64,000 nucleotides of DNA from Thermorudis peleae (lineage in GTDB: Bacteria; Chloroflexota; Chloroflexia; Thermomicrobiales; Thermomicrobiaceae). Positions 3,749-26,082 of this stretch are shown piece after piece. Both the position numbers and the translations under genes were made by a program. The stretch spans positions 186,001 through 250,000 of the forward strand of contig NZ_JQMP01000001.1 of the NCBI RefSeq assembly GCF_000744775.1, read 5' to 3'. Position 1 is the first letter of the stretch, and the number at the start of each line of letters is the position of its first letter. The notes under the pieces are model-generated. The model had not been told where the DNA came from. It saw nothing but the letters and a program-made list of their open reading frames with translations, and made no database searches.

Positions 3749-6259
3749 TTACCGCACGGTCTCGTAAAGCATCGTCCGCGTACGGGCTGCGATCTCGTCG
3801 GGGTCGGCGGCGACACGCGCGACGCCGGTGTCGAGCGCAGCCCGCGCGACGGCCGCGGCGACCGCGGGAGGAACGCGGAGGTCAAGGCTGTCTGGAATGA
3901 TGCGACCACTGGCGAGTTCGCGGTCGGTGACCAGTGACGCGATTGCCTCAGCGGCAGCGAGCTTCATTGCATCGTTGATATCGCGTGCCTGGACGTCGAG
4001 TGCGCCGCGGAAGATGCCAGGGAACGCGAGGGAATTGTTGACTTGATTTGGATAGTCGGAGCGCCCAGTGGCGACGACGAGTGCGCCGGCTTCCAGTGCC
4101 ACGTCAGGGTGAATTTCTGGGTCAGGGTTGGCGAGGGCGAAGATGATCGGCTTTGGGGCCATCGTGCTAATCATCTGTGGCGTCAGGATATCAGGCGAGG
4201 ACAGCCCGATGAAGACGTCAGCGCCGACCAGGGCGTCAGCTAATGTGCCGCGCAACCCCTGCTTATTTGTGAGCCGCGCCATTTCGAGCTTGTAGCGGTT
4301 CATGCCAATCTCACGGTCACGCGCGATGATGCCATGGCGATCACAGAGAATGAGATCGCCGACCCCGTAGACAAGCAGGAGTTTGGCAGTCGCAATGCCG
4401 GCGGCTCCGGCCCCGTTAATGACGATCTTTGCCTCGTTGAGGGGTGTGCCGCGCAAGCGGAACGCGTTGATGAGGCCAGCGAGCACGACGACGGCAGTGC
4501 CATGTTGGTCATCGTGGAAGACCGGCAGGTCGAGCCGCTCCTTTAGTGCCGCCTCGATCTCAAAGCACCGTGGAGCTGAGATATCTTCAAGATTAATTCC
4601 ACCAAACGATGGTGCAATAGCCTCAACAAGATCGACAATCTGCTGCGGGTCACGTTCAGCGACGCAGATTGGGAACGCCTCGACTCCAGCCAGCGACTGG
4701 AAGAGCACGGCTTTGCCTTCCATGACGGGCAAGGCAGCCTGCGGGCCGATATCACCCAGCCCAAGCACCGCGCTGCCATCAGTCACGATGGCCACAAGAT
4801 TGCCCTTCACGGTTAGGTTATAGACCTCGGGCGGATTCAGCCGTACTTCGTCCACCGGCACGAGGGCTGCCGGCGGTAAGTAGACAAGGTTGAGGATGTG
4901 CGGATCACGAATCGGGATCTTGCTGCGGATCTCGAGGACGCCGTGATGACGCTGGCGGAGTTCGATCGCCTCCTCCGCAAGTGAACGCGGCCGCATACTC
5001 AGCGGCCGCCGTGGTTCAAACGTCCCTTCATAGACGTAGCGACGCGTGTTTTCAGCCACGGTCGCTGGATCAACCGACCTGGTCGCCTCGCGTGTCTCAT
5101 TTGCCGCTTGGACGACCGCCGCGGCAATGGCTGGCGCGACGCGGAAGTCGAAGAGCTGGGGCACGATCGACGTCGGCGAGCGCTGGCCGGGGGGCACGAG
5201 GCTCGCCAGTGCCTCTGCGGCGTAGACCAGTGTGCGCAGGCGAATGTTGCGCGCGCCCGAATCGAGCAACCCGCGGAAGACGCCCGGGAAGACAAGCGAA
5301 ATATCCATCATGTTGGGATAATCAGCGCGGCCCGTGGCGACGATTGCAGCCCCCGCTTGCTTGGCAAGTTCTGGATCGATTTCAGGCGTCGGCAAAGCGA
5401 GCGCGAAGATAACGGGATCAGGTGCCATGCTGGCGACCATCTCTGGCGTCACGATGTTGCCCTGGGCGAGCCCGATGAAGACGTCAGCGCCCTTGAGGAC
5501 GTCAGCCAGCGAGCCGCGGCGCCGTTCCGGATTCGTTTCCTTGGCAAGATAGGCCTTAGCCCAGTTCATCCGAACCGTGCGTCCGGCGTAGATCGCGCCG
5601 GCCCGGTCACAAACGACGATATCCCGCACGCCAACGCGATAGAGCAGCCGGGCAACCCCGATGCCGGAGAGCCCAGCGCCAGCGATCACGACGCGCACCT
5701 GCTCGAGCTGCTTGCCAACGACGTCAAGCGCGTTCTTGAGCGCGCCGAGGACGAGGATGGCCGTGCCGTGGTGCTGGTTACTAAAGACTGGAATCGGCGC
5801 ACCTTTTTCGAGGTGATCGGCGATGGTGAAGCTATGCGGAGCACGGATATGGTCAAGGCAGATGGCTCCAAAGGTTGGCGTGAGTCGCAGGGCAACTTCG
5901 ACGATAGCGAGTGGGTCATGAAGATCGACGCAAATCGGCACGGCGTCAACGCCGGCAAATGTTTTGAAGATGACGCTTTTGGCCTCAAGCAAGGGCAGTG
6001 CAGCCTCAACAGGCCCACGCGTGGGCCCGAAGAGGTCAGTGCCGTCAGTGAGAATCGCGACGGTATTGCCGCGTCCAGTGAGTTCAAAGGATGCGACTTC
6101 ATCGCGGCTGATTGCGCGGCATGCCTCGGCAACGCCAGGCGTGTAGACGAGGCTGAGCATCGCACGGTCGCGCAGCGGCACCTTGCTGCCGATCCCAATC
6201 AGCCCGCGATACTGTCGGCGAAACGCCAATGTTGCATCTGGCTGGTCTAGCAGATACAC
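3749..6259 (-). CDS. Fused double NAD(P)-malic enzyme (two malic enzyme modules in one chain)
   Basis: Two complete MaeB-type malic enzyme modules are joined head to tail, about residues 5-415 and 425-836. The family decarboxylates malate to pyruvate. I start at the GTG at 6259 (836 residues): GGAGG lies seven bases upstream and a promoter just behind it; an ATG at 6355 lies upstream of that promoter. The N-half keeps YTPGVA (residues 39-44) and the catalytic Lys (LEAKSVIF) but has lost the metal motif (SNQHHGTA at 160 instead of HDDQHGTA; CLDHI instead of NLEDI) and the nucleotide-side motif (LALPTPEI for LANPEPEI). The C-half keeps HDDQHGTA (582), NLEDI, MEGK and LANPDPEI but has YLPPAA (460) for YTPGVA. 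The losses are complementary. A terminator follows. Confidence 0.88.
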   Translation of the reverse strand: MYLLDQPDATLAFRRQYRGLIGIGSKVPLRDRAMLSLVYTPGVAEACRAISRDEVASFELTGRGNTVAILTDGTDLFGPTRGPVEAALPLLEAKSVIFKTFAGVDAVPICVDLHDPLAIVEVALRLTPTFGAICLDHIRAPHSFTIADHLEKGAPIPVFSNQHHGTAILVLGALKNALDVVGKQLEQVRVVIAGAGLSGIGVARLLYRVGVRDIVVCDRAGAIYAGRTVRMNWAKAYLAKETNPERRRGSLADVLKGADVFIGLAQGNIVTPEMVASMAPDPVIFALALPTPEIDPELAKQAGAAIVATGRADYPNMMDISLVFPGVFRGLLDSGARNIRLRTLVYAAEALASLVPPGQRSPTSIVPQLFDFRVAPAIAAAVVQAANETREATRSVDPATVAENTRRYVYEGTFEPRRPLSMRPRSLAEEAIELRQRHHGVLEIRSKIPIRDPHILNLVYLPPAALVPVDEVRLNPPEVYNLTVKGNLVAIVTDGSAVLGLGDIGPQAALPVMEGKAVLFQSLAGVEAFPICVAERDPQQIVDLVEAIAPSFGGINLEDISAPRCFEIEAALKERLDLPVFHDDQHGTAVVVLAGLINAFRLRGTPLNEAKIVINGAGAAGIATAKLLLVYGVGDLILCDRHGIIARDREIGMNRYKLEMARLTNKQGLRGTLADALVGADVFIGLSSPDILTPQMISTMAPKPIIFALANPDPEIHPDVALEAGALVVATGRSDYPNQVNNSLAFPGIFRGALDVQARDINDAMKLAAAEAIASLVTDRELASGRIIPDSLDLRVPPAVAAAVARAALDTGVARVAADPDEIAARTRTMLYETVR

Positions 6260-19767: not shown

Positions 19768-21087
19768 CTAGTGGTTTTGCAGCACGGTAACCGGCTGACG
19801 CTCAATCTTGTTCCAGAGGTAGCCACCCGGGTTCCAGACGCCCTCGTCAGTCTGGGTATTCCCTTTCTCATCAGTGGCGCGGACGGCCAGGGTATACTGC
19901 CCCGGCTGCTCCGGCGTCCACGTCCATGACCAGGTCCGGAACGCGTAGGGGCCAAGGTCGTCGCCGAGCTGCGCAGTTACCCAGGTCTTCCCGTCGTCAG
20001 TTGAGACCTCCACCTTGACCACTCGGCCCGAGCCACTGAAGGCGATGCCGCGCACCTCGGTTGGTACCCCGGCAACCAGCGGCACGGTGCCGTCGGGCAC
20101 AATGATGAATGACCGGACCGGCATGTTCACCTTGCCGATCGGTACCATCTTGACTGTCCCAGCGGCCACCGCGTCAGGCGTAGTCGAGCCGTTCGGCGTG
20201 TCCGGGATCTTATAAGCTGAAGCCATCCAGAAGTTAGAGTCTTCTTGAGTCAAGGCCCGAATCCACGTCAGGTGCTTGACCCAGTAGGTGGCAAACTTGC
20301 CGGGGACAATAAGGCGGACCGGAAAGCCGTTGAGCATCGGCAATGGTTCGCCATTCATCGCGTAGGCCACCAGGCACTGGTCGATCACCGGGTCGGTGAG
20401 GTCGAGCGACTTGAGGAACGCGTGCGAGCCCTTGCCCTCAGGTCCCTTCCCGGAATCAAGCCCTTGGAACTGAATCTGGACGGTGCCGGACTTGGGCTTA
20501 GCCATGTCGAGCAGGGTGCGCAGGCGAACTCCCAGCCACTCGGCGCAGCCCATTGCGCCGTTGCCCCATTGTCCTCCTGCGACTCGGGGCTGGAAGCGGC
20601 TACGCGAGTTACCCGAACACTGGTTGACGGCTACCAGCTTTGTTGCCTCTAGCTTTAACAACTCGGGCAGGCTGAGAGCCAGCGGGTTCTCGACGTTTCC
20701 CTCCACGTGCAGCCGCCAGGTGCTAAGGTCGACCGCATTGGGAATCACATCCAGATGGTAGCGGACGAAGAAGGCAGCGTTCGGCGTAAGTGGTGTCAGG
20801 AAGTAATGTCGTGGGGTCTCCAGTTGGACGGGGCGGTCGGTCAGGCGTAAGAGGGGCACTTTCTGGGGATAGACTGCGTAAGGGCTCACACTGTTCCAGT
20901 AGGGATTCGGCCCCGGACCGGTAAACGATGGGATCGGTTCCTGCACCGGCCCGGTCTCTTGGGCCGCGGCCGCCTCAAGCAGGCCGCTAAGTGCACCAGT
21001 CGCAGCCAAGATACCGGCCCCCTGCAGGAACCGCCGGCGCTGGATCCCCCGCCCCAGCCACCCAAGCCGTTCGTGCTTTTCCGCCAT
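19768..21087 (-). CDS. Tat-exported molybdenum sulfite oxidase/dehydrogenase (SorA-like)
   Basis: 439 residues from the ATG at 21087 (GAGGAGGGA upstream). A Tat signal is visible: [19 protein letters not shown], cleavage near AAAAQE. The oxidoreductase-molybdopterin domain follows, with the molybdenum-ligating cysteine in [12 protein letters not shown] and the cofactor-pocket sequences [17 protein letters not shown] and [20 protein letters not shown], then the immunoglobulin-like Mo-co dimer domain ([23 protein letters not shown]). It oxidises sulfite to sulfate outside the membrane, passing electrons to the cytochrome encoded next. Upstream genes provide the sulfite. Confidence 0.92.
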
Positions 21088-21184
21088 GGAATCCCTCCTC
21101 ACGGATACTCCGCTCCTCCACGCTGGTCTCCATGGGTTCTACGGACTACTGTGGCGCGCGGTTTGCCTCCTTTCGCAATGCCCG

Positions 21185-21976
21185 CTAGACAGCCAGCAGT
21201 GCCGTGCTGAGTAGCGCCACCCCCAGGGCCGCTACCAGCCCAGCGAAGGCGAGCCGCAGCCAGCGCTCGCCCACCCGCTCGCTCAGCCGCGCTCCCACTA
21301 ACACCCCGGCCAACGCACTTACTGCGAAGAGTCCGGCCACGCGCAGGTCCAGCCCGCCGAAGTGCAGATGGACGAGAAGAGCGGCAATCGCGTTGAGTGC
21401 GATGATCGCCAGTGAGGTCCCAACGGCCATGCGCATCGAAAATCCCAGGAACAGCACCAGAGCCGGGACGATGATGAACCCGCCGCCTGCCCCGAACAGC
21501 CCGGTCAGTGCCCCCACGCCGAAGCCTGCAGCCAGGGCCGCCAGCTGCGAGCGCTTCGTCTGGCTTCCCGGCTGGATCGGGCGACTGCTTGCATCGCCCG
21601 TCAGTTGTGCCGATCGCGCGCTCTGAAACATCCGGGCCGCGGTGACCAGCATCAGCAGGCTGAAGAGTACAAGCACCACGGCGTTCGGCAGGCGCCGGTT
21701 CACTATCGCTCCGAGAAATGAGCCAGGGATACCAGCCAGCGCGAACGGCAGGGCCGTGCCGAGGTCGACGCGCCCCGCCCGCCAGTGGGGCAGTGCGCCG
21801 ACCCCAGCCGTCAGGCCAACCACCACCAGCGAGGTCGCGGTTGCCGCGTGGGCATCCTGCCCGGCAACGTAGACCAGCGCCGGCACTGCGAGGATCGACC
21901 CCCCGCCGCCGATCAGGCCGAGCGAGAGGCCAATCGGCAGACCACAGAGCACCAGTGCCAGCCAGCCCGCACTCAT
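21185..21976 (-). CDS. TauE/SafE-family sulfite/organosulfonate exporter-like permease
   Basis: 263 residues with about eight helices in two similar halves. Each half opens with a glycine-rich turn typical of the family: GLIGGGGSILAVPALVYVAG and GLFGAGGGFIIVPALVLFLG. The ATG start at 21976 overlaps the rhodanese stop by 4 bases (ATGA); the longer open frame overlaps rhodanese. In sulfide-detoxification operons this family is thought to move sulfite or related anions out of the cell, which suits its place between the persulfide dioxygenase and the external sulfite dehydrogenase. Confidence 0.88.
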   Translation of the reverse strand: MSAGWLALVLCGLPIGLSLGLIGGGGSILAVPALVYVAGQDAHAATATSLVVVGLTAGVGALPHWRAGRVDLGTALPFALAGIPGSFLGAIVNRRLPNAVVLVLFSLLMLVTAARMFQSARSAQLTGDASSRPIQPGSQTKRSQLAALAAGFGVGALTGLFGAGGGFIIVPALVLFLGFSMRMAVGTSLAIIALNAIAALLVHLHFGGLDLRVAGLFAVSALAGVLVGARLSERVGERWLRLAFAGLVAALGVALLSTALLAV

Positions 21977-22311
21977 CGCTCGCGCGTCACCGGTAAGCGG
22001 TGCTGCTGCCAGGCCAGTAGGCCACCAGCCAAGTTCGTGGCCTGCAACCCAGCCTGCCGCAGTAGCGCCGTCGCCCGAGCACTCCGGCTGCCGCTCCGGC
22101 AGACGACGATCCACTCTCGGTTCGGGTCAAGTTCGTGTAACCGGTGTGGCAGTTGCCCGAGAGGAATGTGCCAGGCTCCTGGAATGTGGCCAGCCTGCCA
22201 CTCATCCAGCTCGCGCACATCGAGGATCGTCGCCCCATTCTGCTGCCGTTGCCGTGCTTCTAAAGGTGTCACTTCGGGCAGCGGCTCCCGCCGAAACAAC
22301 TGGAAGATCAC
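21973..22311 (-). CDS. Single-domain rhodanese (sulfurtransferase)
   Basis: 112 residues. The catalytic loop is CRSGSRS (Cys at about residue 80), and LDVRELDEWQAGHIPGAWHIPLGQL is the usual rhodanese core. Transfers a sulfane sulfur between persulfide carriers. Overlaps the TauE-like gene by 4 bases and lies 49 bases after the CstB-like gene. Confidence 0.93.
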   Translation of the reverse strand: MIFQLFRREPLPEVTPLEARQRQQNGATILDVRELDEWQAGHIPGAWHIPLGQLPHRLHELDPNREWIVVCRSGSRSARATALLRQAGLQATNLAGGLLAWQQHRLPVTRER

Positions 22312-22360: not shown

Positions 22361-23761
22361 TCAGGCAGCCGTGGCCGTCGTTAACGGTTCGAGCGGCAAC
22401 CGTTCAGCAATCCAGGCAGTCATTCCACCGGCCACGTCGATGACGTTTCCGAAGCCCAGGCGGCGCAACAGGCTGGCCGCGATGATGCTCCGTTCGCCCC
22501 CGCCGCAGACCACGGCGACGTGCTCAGTGGGGTTAAGTCGCTGGCGGGCTTCCGCCTCAACCCGGTAGAATGGCAGGTGGATCGCGCCGGGTACATGCCC
22601 TGCCTCCCACTCGTCAGGCTCGCGCACATCGAGTACCTGCACTGGCCGCCGCTCAGTCAATGCCTGAGCGAGTTCCCGTGGCGTCCACTGTGACAGCGTC
22701 GCCACCGGCTCACCAGCCTGTTGCCAGGCTGCCATCCCACCGGCCAGGTAGCCGACGATCTGGTCAAAACCAATGACTGCCAGCGCTTGCGCCACCTCTC
22801 GTGCGGCAGTATCGTCGTCCAACACCAGCAGCAGGCGGGCATCAGGCGGCACCACCAGCCCCACCCGGTTTTGGAACTGGCTACCCTTGAACCAGACGGT
22901 TATCGCTCCCGGGATATGGCCTTGGGCAAATGCGGCTGGCGCCCGCGTGTCGAGGACGAGCACCCCGTCGCGCAGAAACTGGCGCACTGCCGCCGGGGTG
23001 AGCGGCTGTGGCTCGGCAACGGCCAGTGGCACGGCTCCGCGGTTGAGTTCCACGATCCGCTCCATGTTCGGCGGGCGCACCGGCAGCCGCTCGTTCATGT
23101 AACGCACAAACGCCGCTTCGTCGCCGATGGCGATCGCCGGGTTGAAGCGCTTCTCAAAGCCGATTGATGTACTTGTCATGCGGTTGGCCACCCGACCACA
23201 GAGCGACCCCGCCACATGGCCCGGACAGACGATTGTGCCTTCAGGTAGCTGGAGGAGTCGCTCGTGCAGGCTGTGAAACAGCCCGTGGGCGCCCTCTAGT
23301 CCATCGACTGCCAGGTCGGGCCGAGCAACGTCACCAATGAAGAGCGAATCACCAGTGAGGACGACCCACGGCTCCGGCCCACGGGTCGTGTCGATGACTG
23401 CAATCGCGATATGCTCTGGCCGATGCCCTGGCGTGTGAATGACCCGGAGCACCACATCGCCCAGCACAAGCTCATCGCCGTCCCGTACGGCCTGGTGTGG
23501 ATAGGCCACTCCCGCCGCCTCATGAACGACGATCGTTGCCCCGGTGCGGGCTGCCAGCTGGTGGTGCCCAGCGACGTGGTCAGCGTGGTTGTGCGTCTCA
23601 ATAATGTAGCGTAGGCGCAATCCCTCACGAGCCAGGATTGTGAGGATTTCCTCGACCATATCGATGCGTGGGTCGATGACGGCTGCCTCCCCACTTGCCG
23701 TCGATCCCACAAGGTAGGCCGCACAGCCAATGTCCGTGCGAACGAGTTGCTGGAAGAACAT
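22361..23761 (-). CDS. Persulfide dioxygenase fused to pseudo-rhodanese and rhodanese (CstB-like)
   Basis: 466 residues from the ATG at 23761 (GGAGG upstream). Three domains: a metallo-beta-lactamase-fold non-haem iron dioxygenase (residues 1-245, THNHADHVAGH, HTPGHRPEH, GDSLFIGDVARPDL), a central rhodanese-like domain that lacks a cysteine at the loop (LLVLDDDTAA, about residue 340), and a C-terminal rhodanese with its cysteine (VAVVCGGGERS, about residue 430). This is the architecture described for Staphylococcus CstB, which oxidises low-molecular-weight persulfide and transfers sulfur to make thiosulfate. Here it probably yields sulfite or thiosulfate from SQR-derived persulfide. Confidence 0.9.
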   Translation of the reverse strand: MFFQQLVRTDIGCAAYLVGSTASGEAAVIDPRIDMVEEILTILAREGLRLRYIIETHNHADHVAGHHQLAARTGATIVVHEAAGVAYPHQAVRDGDELVLGDVVLRVIHTPGHRPEHIAIAVIDTTRGPEPWVVLTGDSLFIGDVARPDLAVDGLEGAHGLFHSLHERLLQLPEGTIVCPGHVAGSLCGRVANRMTSTSIGFEKRFNPAIAIGDEAAFVRYMNERLPVRPPNMERIVELNRGAVPLAVAEPQPLTPAAVRQFLRDGVLVLDTRAPAAFAQGHIPGAITVWFKGSQFQNRVGLVVPPDARLLLVLDDDTAAREVAQALAVIGFDQIVGYLAGGMAAWQQAGEPVATLSQWTPRELAQALTERRPVQVLDVREPDEWEAGHVPGAIHLPFYRVEAEARQRLNPTEHVAVVCGGGERSIIAASLLRRLGFGNVIDVAGGMTAWIAERLPLEPLTTATAA

Positions 23762-23765
23762 GGCA

Positions 23766-24185
23766 TTACCTCCGTGTCTCCGCCGTCTGAACCGCCGCAG
23801 CAAACGCTTGCAGCGCGCGCTCCAGCCGGGCTCGAGCTTCAGCAGCAATCGGCTCCAGCGCTGGATTGCCAGCAATCCCCAGCATCGCCTGCGGATCGGC
23901 AATTTCTACCCGCGTCTGCCCATCGACTGCCCGGACGACGACGTTGCAGGGTAACAGCAGGCCGATCTCTGGCTCACGCTCAAGCGCCTGATGTGCCAGG
24001 GTGGGATTACACGCTCCCAAAATGCGATAGGGCGGCATCTCCTGCCCCAGCTTCTGCTTGAGCGTCTGCTGCACATCAATTTCTGTGAGCACGCCAAAGC
24101 CTTCAGCCTTGAGCGCTTCGGTAATCCGTGCGACTGCCTCCTCAGGCGGCACGGCAACCGTGACACCAAATCCATAGCTTCCCAT
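23766..24185 (-). CDS. DUF302-family protein
   Basis: 139 residues from the ATG at 24185 behind AAGGAG. The DUF302 pattern is clear: MGSYGFGVTV, then EAVARITEALKAEGFGVLTEIDVQQTLKQKLG, GACNPTLAHQALEREPEIGLLLPCNVVVR. The two cysteines (in GACNP and LLPCNV) are conserved in many members. The function is not established; its frequent place next to sulfur and sulfide genes suggests a sulfur-carrier or redox role. It precedes the CstB-like gene by four bases. Confidence 0.88.
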   Translation of the reverse strand: MGSYGFGVTVAVPPEEAVARITEALKAEGFGVLTEIDVQQTLKQKLGQEMPPYRILGACNPTLAHQALEREPEIGLLLPCNVVVRAVDGQTRVEIADPQAMLGIAGNPALEPIAAEARARLERALQAFAAAVQTAETRR

Positions 24186-24476: not shown

Positions 24477-24860
24477 TCACTCCGCTGTGTCGGTCACTGG
24501 TGTCGACCCGACCGGGATCTGCTCCCGCAGCTGCGTTGCCCAGGAACCCCGGCACGCTAGCTGGTCGATCAAGATGGCCCGCGTCAGGTGGCAGGCTTCG
24601 AGAATTCGGCGGTCGGTTAAGGAGTAGTGCATCTCGGTACCGACGCGCTCGGCCTGCACCACGCCCAGCTGCCGCATGATGGCCAGGTGCTGGCTGATCT
24701 TGGCCTGTCGCTGGCCAGTTAACTCAACGAGTCGCTTGACTGGCAGTGGGCCCTCGGCCAGTAGTTCCAGAATCTCGATCCGCGTTGGGTCGGCAAGTAC
24801 CCGACAGAACTCGGCCTGGAGCTGGTAGAGCTGTCGTGTTTGCGTGCGGTCGTCGGTCAT
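24477..24860 (-). CDS. ArsR-family repressor, probable sulfide/persulfide sensor of the sulfur cluster
   Basis: 127 residues from the ATG at 24860; longer readings run through the promoter. Winged helix: LADPTRIEILELLAEGPLPVKRLVEL, recognition helix GQRQAKISQHLAIMRQLG, wing VVQAERVGTEMHYSL. Cysteines at 19, 90 and 103. In SqrR/BigR-type regulators a cysteine pair forms a sulfur bridge on exposure to persulfide; the spacing here is not the usual one. It is divergent from nothing but lies directly after the SQR-like operon, and its promoter contains a dyad also found at the SQR promoter. Head gene of the DUF302-CstB operon. Confidence 0.88.
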   Translation of the reverse strand: MTDDRTQTRQLYQLQAEFCRVLADPTRIEILELLAEGPLPVKRLVELTGQRQAKISQHLAIMRQLGVVQAERVGTEMHYSLTDRRILEACHLTRAILIDQLACRGSWATQLREQIPVGSTPVTDTAE

Positions 24861-24939: not shown

Positions 24940-26082
24940 TTAGAAGTAACGCCAGAGCCACCATTTCTCAAACAAGAGCTTGCCCACAAAGAGCGCGCGT
25001 GATGGCTCCCACATGCGCCCACGGCCTTCGCCTTTCGGTGGAAACCCCTTGGGGTAAGTCGTCCGGCTCATCGCGGCGCGCCCGGCGCCGTAGGTAACGA
25101 GTCAGGTTGTGTGCAGGCGGAATCGTTCCTTGGTACCGTGGCCAGTCAACTCCACGGCGAGGTTGTGCGCGATCAAGTCAGCCTGTTGGTGAGCCACAAC
25201 TCCCGCTTTCGATGCAGGGAAGTTCACGCAGTCTCCTAAGGCGTAGATATTGGGGTAACGGGTGGCAAGGGTGTCATAGTCAACTTGGACCCCAGCTGGC
25301 TCTGCAAGCCCACTGTCCAGTAGCACCTGAGCAGGACGATGCGGTGGAATCATGAACATGAGGTCATAGTGTAGCTCGTCGCCGTGAGCATTGCGCACGA
25401 CATTGTGTTCGTGGTCAATTTCTGCAACAGGCCAATCGAAATGAGTGATCACCCCGCGTGCCTCGGCGTGCTCCGTGAGCCAACGATTAGCTGATTTGGG
25501 GTCACCGCCCGGGCGCGCCATCGGCGCAACAAAGTGGATCTCTGTGCGCTGGCGTACGCCCCGCTTGTGCAAGAACGTGTCAATGCTGAAGAGCGCCTCG
25601 AACGGAGCAGGTGGGCAACGATAGGGAGTCGCTGGCATTCCCACGACGATGGTTCCGCCCGAAAAATTGCGGAGGGCATCATAACACCGGACAGCAGCCT
25701 CGAGTTCCCAGGCATGGTACGCGCCCTCACAGGCACCAGGAATCTCTTCCGGGTGGGTTTCAAGACCAAGCGCTAGGATGAGGTAGTCGTAGCCGATACG
25801 CTCACTCTCCAGTTCAACGGTCTGAGTCGAGGGGTCAATCCCCAAAATGTTCCCCAGAATGACTCGAACACCATATCGCTCTGTCCGGGTCAAGTCACGC
25901 GTGATGTCGCTTGGGCGACGCTCGCCCGTCATGAGAAGGAGATTCGCAGGCTGGTAGATGTGGTACGGGCGCCGATCGATGAGGATAACGTCATGCTTGC
26001 CCCGAAGCTTCTGGGCTAGGTTCACGGCGGCTGAGACACCACCGATACCACCACCAAGCACGACGACGCGTTTGCGTGTCAT
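24940..26082 (-). CDS. SQR/FCSD-like FAD flavoprotein with in-frame TGA at the third redox-cysteine position (possible selenoprotein, or nonsense mutant)
   Basis: Sulfide:quinone oxidoreductase-like flavoprotein. Start ATG 26082 with AAGGAGG. The Rossmann motif VVVLGGGIGGVSAAVNLA, GACEGAYHAW, YRCPPAPFEA and NIYALGDCVNFPASKAG are SQR/FCSD hallmarks. Up to the TGA at 25104-25102 the protein has 326 residues and lacks the family C-terminus. The same frame then continues for 53 sense codons to TAA at 24940, encoding LVTYGAGRAAM and the family-typical end WEPSRALFVGKLLFEKWWLWRYF (split here for length: the Trp-Glu-Pro-Ser start, then LFEKWWLWRYF). Family members carry Cys-x-x-x-x-G-x-G-x-A-A at this site; the TGA takes the Cys place with exact spacing. 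So either selenocysteine, a point nonsense mutation, or a sequencing error. Confidence 0.75.
25067..25104 (-). promoter_or_regulatory. In-frame TGA followed by a SECIS-like hairpin
   Basis: Minus strand, directly after TGA (25104-25102): lower stem CTCGT (25101-25097) with ATGAG (25071-25067, one G-T pair), upper stem GGCGC (25089-25085) with GCGCC (25079-25075), apical loop CGGGC beginning 17 bases after the TGA. Bacterial SECIS elements are stem-loops just downstream of the UGA with a guanine among the first loop bases; this hairpin fits loosely. GC-rich DNA forms such hairpins by chance, so weight is modest. Confidence 0.35.

Follow-up and report, generated by a model that had tools for sequence, protein, structure and literature searches.

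A probable selenocysteine-containing sulfide quinone reductase-like flavoprotein in Thermorudis peleae and its Sec-only relatives

Flavocytochrome c sulfide dehydrogenase has two redox cysteines and works with a cytochrome partner, and the sulfide quinone reductases (SQRs) of Aquifex aeolicus and Acidithiobacillus ferrooxidans carry a third Cys near the active site. In the human enzyme, SQOR, the target of sulfide is a Cys379-S-S-S-Cys201 bridge; Cys379 takes the sulfane sulfur to an acceptor and Cys201 couples to FAD (PMC11039317). Selenocysteine (Sec) has also been placed in such proteins: in 2025 an NAD(P)/FAD-dependent oxidoreductase of Desulfosediminicola was predicted by deep-Sep to be a selenoprotein (PMC12013277), and the NCBIfam model NF049943 (SQR_III_seleno) is now curated as 'type III sulfide quinone reductase, selenoprotein subtype', with the motif HxxU (PMC13188914). 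A preliminary description of the DNA studied here, a 64,000-nucleotide stretch of the Thermorudis peleae genome (the window), had raised the possibility of a selenoprotein SQR of a kind unknown to its author; the selenoprotein part of that proposal is supported by our analysis, but, given these two reports, its novelty is not. A literature search on Thermomicrobia and SQR turned up nothing on a selenoprotein.

The gene occupies 24940..26082 on the minus strand and has 380 codons including Sec327. Its ATG (26082-26080) is preceded by AAAGGAGGGATCG, a strong Shine-Dalgarno-like sequence, and the frame runs through 326 sense codons to an in-frame TGA (codon 327; 25104-25102, i.e. 25102..25104, minus strand) at the position of the C-terminal catalytic Cys, then through 53 further sense codons to a TAA at 24942-24940. 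The TGA stands in the context HTTU-LVTY-GAGRAA, and the motif at the Sec site, LHTTU, matches the HxxU pattern. Checked against sequence and translation, the coordinates, the x4-G-x-G-x-A-A spacing and the product lengths in the preliminary description are all correct. In a GC-rich genome, a 53-codon open frame would by itself be weak evidence of a coding extension, and the evidence from homologues is stronger. Reassignment of TGA, as in codes 4 and 25, was rejected; TGA is the ordinary stop of the neighbouring genes ending at 21973, 22361 and 24477, so the genetic code is not reassigned, and the residue aligned to codon 327 in homologues is Cys rather than Trp or Gly. We estimate, with a probability of roughly 0.87, that the gene encodes a full-length 380-residue SQR-like flavoprotein with Sec as its C-terminal catalytic residue, inserted under the direction of a SECIS element; both the insertion and the activity are what we infer from the computed TGA conservation, machinery genes, hairpin, predicted fold and neighbourhood. 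The gene is not a broken one, and the evidence supports a selenoprotein and not a truncation.

Relatives were sought within the phylum, within the family and by scanning bacterial and archaeal genomes. Since the homologue queries had Cys at the Sec site and the scan motifs (FEKWWLW and KAGVVAHQ) lie away from the TGA, there was no selection for TGA. The equivalent of codon 327 is TGA in all of the approximately 35 distinct close relatives and Cys in none. These relatives, 49-63% identical to the window protein, come from Thermomicrobia/Chloroflexota, Acidobacteriota, Binatota and Myxococcota/Deltaproteobacteria; in one of them, L010, an alignment with 63% identity spans the TGA. The check for TGA-bearing relatives suggested in the preliminary description therefore found the same codon in other genomes and phyla. 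All of the wider homologues examined align their C-terminal catalytic Cys to the TGA codon of the window. A scan of genome contigs with the single protein returned no relatives, whereas an alignment-based scan did find them, and a search of a plasmid collection gave no match. Within the window's own family the Sec-SQR gene is present in 6 of 21 genomes, which fits gain by transfer. In the alignment of relatives, codon differences 3' of the TGA fall mostly at third positions, and dN is well below dS wherever dS can be estimated, showing purifying selection on the frame beyond the TGA. The earlier impression of an intact frame free of decay is borne out by this selection and by the confident prediction of the segment as an SQR C-terminal domain. 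The T. peleae genome also encodes a second, distant SQR-like paralogue (L040, G000:C1:152102-153202; 31% identity), which has Cys. Another SQR homologue, L098 (within match 5001-6092), offers a contrast to the Sec-SQR clade: it has Cys at the catalytic site, and its in-frame TGA stands at another place (YNIUAKIN), where it probably reflects a broken gene or a sequencing error.

The window protein contains the Pfam domains Pyr_redox_2 and FCSD_central, and among solved structures the closest to it in sequence is human SQOR, followed by flavocytochrome c and bacterial SQRs. An AlphaFold model built with 43 aligned sequences has a mean pLDDT of 94.5, the part after the TGA included; this part supplies the third domain with its last two strands and its C-terminal helix. 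Where amphipathic membrane-anchoring helices were looked for, the predicted model has one C-terminal helix, at residues 362-379 (LLFEKWWLWR). In a Foldseek search of the PDB, the top matches were the human, Aquifex and Acidithiobacillus SQRs (TM 0.83-0.86), with flavocytochrome c and NDH-2 ranking lower. Fold similarity extends to human SQOR (6OI5, 8DHK; TM 0.85), to the SQRs of A. aeolicus and A. ferrooxidans (3HYV, 3T31; TM 0.84-0.86) and, ranking behind the SQRs, to flavocytochrome c sulfide dehydrogenase (1FCD; TM 0.83). Pfam, the predicted model and Foldseek thus agree on a flavoprotein fold of two dinucleotide-binding domains and an SQR C-terminal domain, at a sequence identity of about 24% to solved SQRs.

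Only two Cys positions are invariant among the 43 sequences, 156 (RCPP) and 327, and each aligns with a Cys of the human SQOR chain, so that two redox-active Cys (or Sec) residues stand at SQR positions. The Cys156 codon (YRCPPAP) lies at 25615..25617 on the minus strand, as computed from the start at 26082. Judged by spacing, the human counterparts are Cys201 and Cys379 of the active site (PMC11039317), which puts Sec327 at the place of Cys379; human SQOR, about 24% identical, has Cys at this C-terminal catalytic site, whereas the window protein has Sec. Unlike the SQRs of A. aeolicus and A. ferrooxidans, the Sec-SQR clade lacks a third invariant Cys. The TGA had been assigned to a 'third redox cysteine'; the assignment to a catalytic Cys site stands, but 'third' does not, since only two such positions are invariant in the clade.

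The gene neighbourhood bears on the substrate. Six neighbours lie downstream of the Sec-SQR gene and, like it, on the minus strand: an ArsR/SmtB-family regulator (24477..24860), a DUF302 protein (23766..24185), a persulfide-dioxygenase-like protein with a metallo-beta-lactamase (MBL) fold and two rhodanese stretches (22361..23761), a single-domain rhodanese (21973..22311), a TauE/SafE sulfite exporter family protein (21185..21976) and a SorA-like sulfite dehydrogenase of the Mo-co oxidoreductase type (19768..21102), which scores 436 bits against a SorA cut-off of 600. By annotation, this set would look like a sulfide-to-sulfite pathway. G150, the nearest relative, has genes for a rhodanese, an MBL-rhodanese, a second rhodanese and a TauE protein in that order, with the Sec-SQR gene last in the series, and in the Binatia-type loci L075, L076, L080 and L110 an MBL-rhodanese gene directly follows the Sec-SQR gene. 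The regulator adjacent to the SQR gene matches sulfite-sensing BigR weakly (36.5 bits; cut-off 155), and it is possible that it senses sulfur species through its cysteines.

By homology with Cys201 and Cys379 of human SQOR, we propose that sulfide would attack a bridged Cys156-(S)-Sec327 resting state. Sec327 would then take up the outgoing sulfane sulfur, forming a selenosulfide, and give it to an acceptor, while Cys156 would pass electrons to FAD and from there to quinone; that sulfide is the substrate and quinone the acceptor, and that the cycle passes through a selenosulfide, is likewise what we infer. The persulfide would go to the rhodanese and MBL-rhodanese proteins encoded alongside, and sulfite to the SorA-like and TauE proteins. 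What Sec would bring is probably quicker attack and release at selenium during the half-cycle of sulfur transfer.

It is also conceivable, if rather unlikely, that all or part of the clade consists of selenoproteins with the SQR fold that act on another substrate, such as a persulfide, a thiol or a quinone. Besides the low identity to solved SQRs and a clade-specific LHTxU motif, this is suggested by many members from Binatota and Deltaproteobacteria, whose neighbours, instead of sulfur genes, are mostly DHDPS-family, cyclase-like and haem-oxygenase-like proteins; sulfide need therefore not be the substrate throughout the clade, and these members may have a different role. However, both SQR catalytic cysteine positions are invariant, SQRs are the best fold matches ahead of flavocytochrome c sulfide dehydrogenase and NDH-2, and sulfur-oxidation neighbours occur in three separate parts of the clade. 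The haem-oxygenase-like/TENA, cyclase-like and DHDPS-family neighbours are kept at L064 (363-2931) and at the matching places in L069, L072, L081 and L082.

For a selenoprotein SQR, the UGA would be decoded as Sec by SelB and tRNA-Sec, directed by a SECIS hairpin just downstream. The search for selA, selB, selC and selD called for in the preliminary description recovered the entire set in the T. peleae genome: SelA (559 bits), SelB (333 bits), SelD (376 bits) and a tRNA-Sec (73.3 bits) with the anticodon TCA (UCA). The SelD gene itself has one in-frame TGA, at the known Sec site of SelD (HCAGUAGKL). Sec is therefore already required in this organism, for a housekeeping selenoprotein. SelB was present in 13 of 13 further genomes, of which 11 have a member of the Sec-SQR clade, one has L091, a Sec gene outside it, and one (G421) has a Cys form. 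Since SelA occurs in 164 of the 201 genomes of the window's phylum, the machinery is necessary but not discriminating, and the presence of SelA and SelB was dropped as a discriminating sign.

A bacterial SECIS-like hairpin, CGGCGC-CGGGC-GCGCCG, lies at 25074..25090 on the minus strand, positions 15-31 counted from the T of the TGA; its distance and the G in its apical loop agree with the bacterial SECIS pattern. Taken alone, the window hairpin is not better than chance (p 0.083; z -0.58 for energy), in part because the codons for GAGRAA are GC-rich by themselves, and the SECIS argument therefore rests on the clade. There, a hairpin just 3' of the TGA was found: five core pairs at a fixed place form in 26 of 30 distinct Sec sequences, compared with 8 of 58 Cys homologues. 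Mean hairpin energy is -10.3 kcal/mol in Sec genes, a set that includes NF049943 genes with a hairpin further downstream, against -7.0 expected from synonymous-codon shuffles, and -4.8 against -4.5 in Cys genes. The covariation score exceeds those of all 500 shuffles. In L026 and L091, two distant Sec lineages, both partners of pairs 19-27 and 20-26 have changed, with compensatory swaps from G-C to C-G and from C-G to A-U. Because the sequences are related and hence non-independent, these statistics are supportive and are not exact probabilities. In four Thermomicrobiaceae sequences the hairpin forms only with a bulged base, and an Rfam search of the region gave no match.

Decoding of the UGA could also serve as a regulated switch that leaves a working 326-residue protein under selenium shortage. 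In known bacterial systems termination does compete with Sec insertion (PMC4513850), yet we regard a programmed truncation as very improbable: in the predicted model the short form would lose the last strands and the helix of the C-terminal domain as well as one of the two catalytic residues, and nothing supports activity without these parts. A recent nonsense mutation of a Cys codon, or a sequencing error, giving a truncated 326-residue protein, as the preliminary description had also envisaged, is the least credible reading and was rejected. TGC or TGT does become TGA by one substitution, other genes of the window end normally in TGA, and stray in-frame TGAs such as that of L098 exist in assemblies. 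Yet the TGA recurs at the same codon in about 35 distinct sequences, with identities as low as 49%, purifying selection acts on the frame downstream of it, and the genome has the full Sec machinery.

The Sec-SQR clade differs from the described SQR selenoproteins. Sec lies at the same alignment column in NF049943 members (HATU) and in the window protein; however, their hairpin is placed elsewhere, with the apical loop at +29 rather than at +21/22. The window protein scores 255.4 bits with the NF049943 model, below its cut-off of 525 bits, and other clade members score 240-267 bits, compared with 216-249 for ordinary Cys homologues; membership of NF049943 was thus rejected. In a tree of 91 sequences, 28 of them from the window's clade, that clade is exclusively Sec (28/28; support 100/99), whereas NF049943 is a separate branch that mixes Sec and Cys members, with Cys-bearing lineages lying between the two. 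In no clade member seen has Sec been replaced by Cys, unlike in the reported branch. Sec appears at two further places in the tree, outside both groups: L026 in the window's phylum and L091 in Methylomirabilota, SQR-like genes whose equivalent codon is also TGA (GYU). The genome of L026 (G019) has SelA and SelB but no SelD above the cut-off, perhaps owing to an incomplete assembly. L123, a Cys gene in the NF049943 branch, still has the SECIS-like hairpin that its Sec relatives have and looks like a recent Sec-to-Cys change.

The tree requires at least five changes between Cys and Sec, and a single clade of all Sec sequences was rejected (AU p = 0.000114). This favours several Cys-to-Sec conversions among SQRs; one very old Sec state followed by many losses and transfers would also account for the distribution but is not favoured. 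The best reading is that the all-Sec clade is of a kind known since 2025 and forms a distinct, wider, Sec-only branch. To the fuller proposal, that this is a second, independently arisen Sec-only SQR branch spanning several phyla, with a Cys-S-Se resting state and the outgoing sulfane sulfur on selenium, we would give even odds.

An annotation pipeline that ends the reading frame at the TGA would list Sec-SQR as truncated and lacking its second catalytic residue, and this clade is missed by the existing NCBIfam model (NF049943). Since SQR chemistry is well studied, down to the catalytic trisulfide of the human enzyme, a natural Sec version allows a direct test of what selenium gains in persulfide chemistry. 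A clade that is all Sec, set against a branch in which Sec and Cys interchange, also provides a natural comparison for asking why some enzymes keep Sec.
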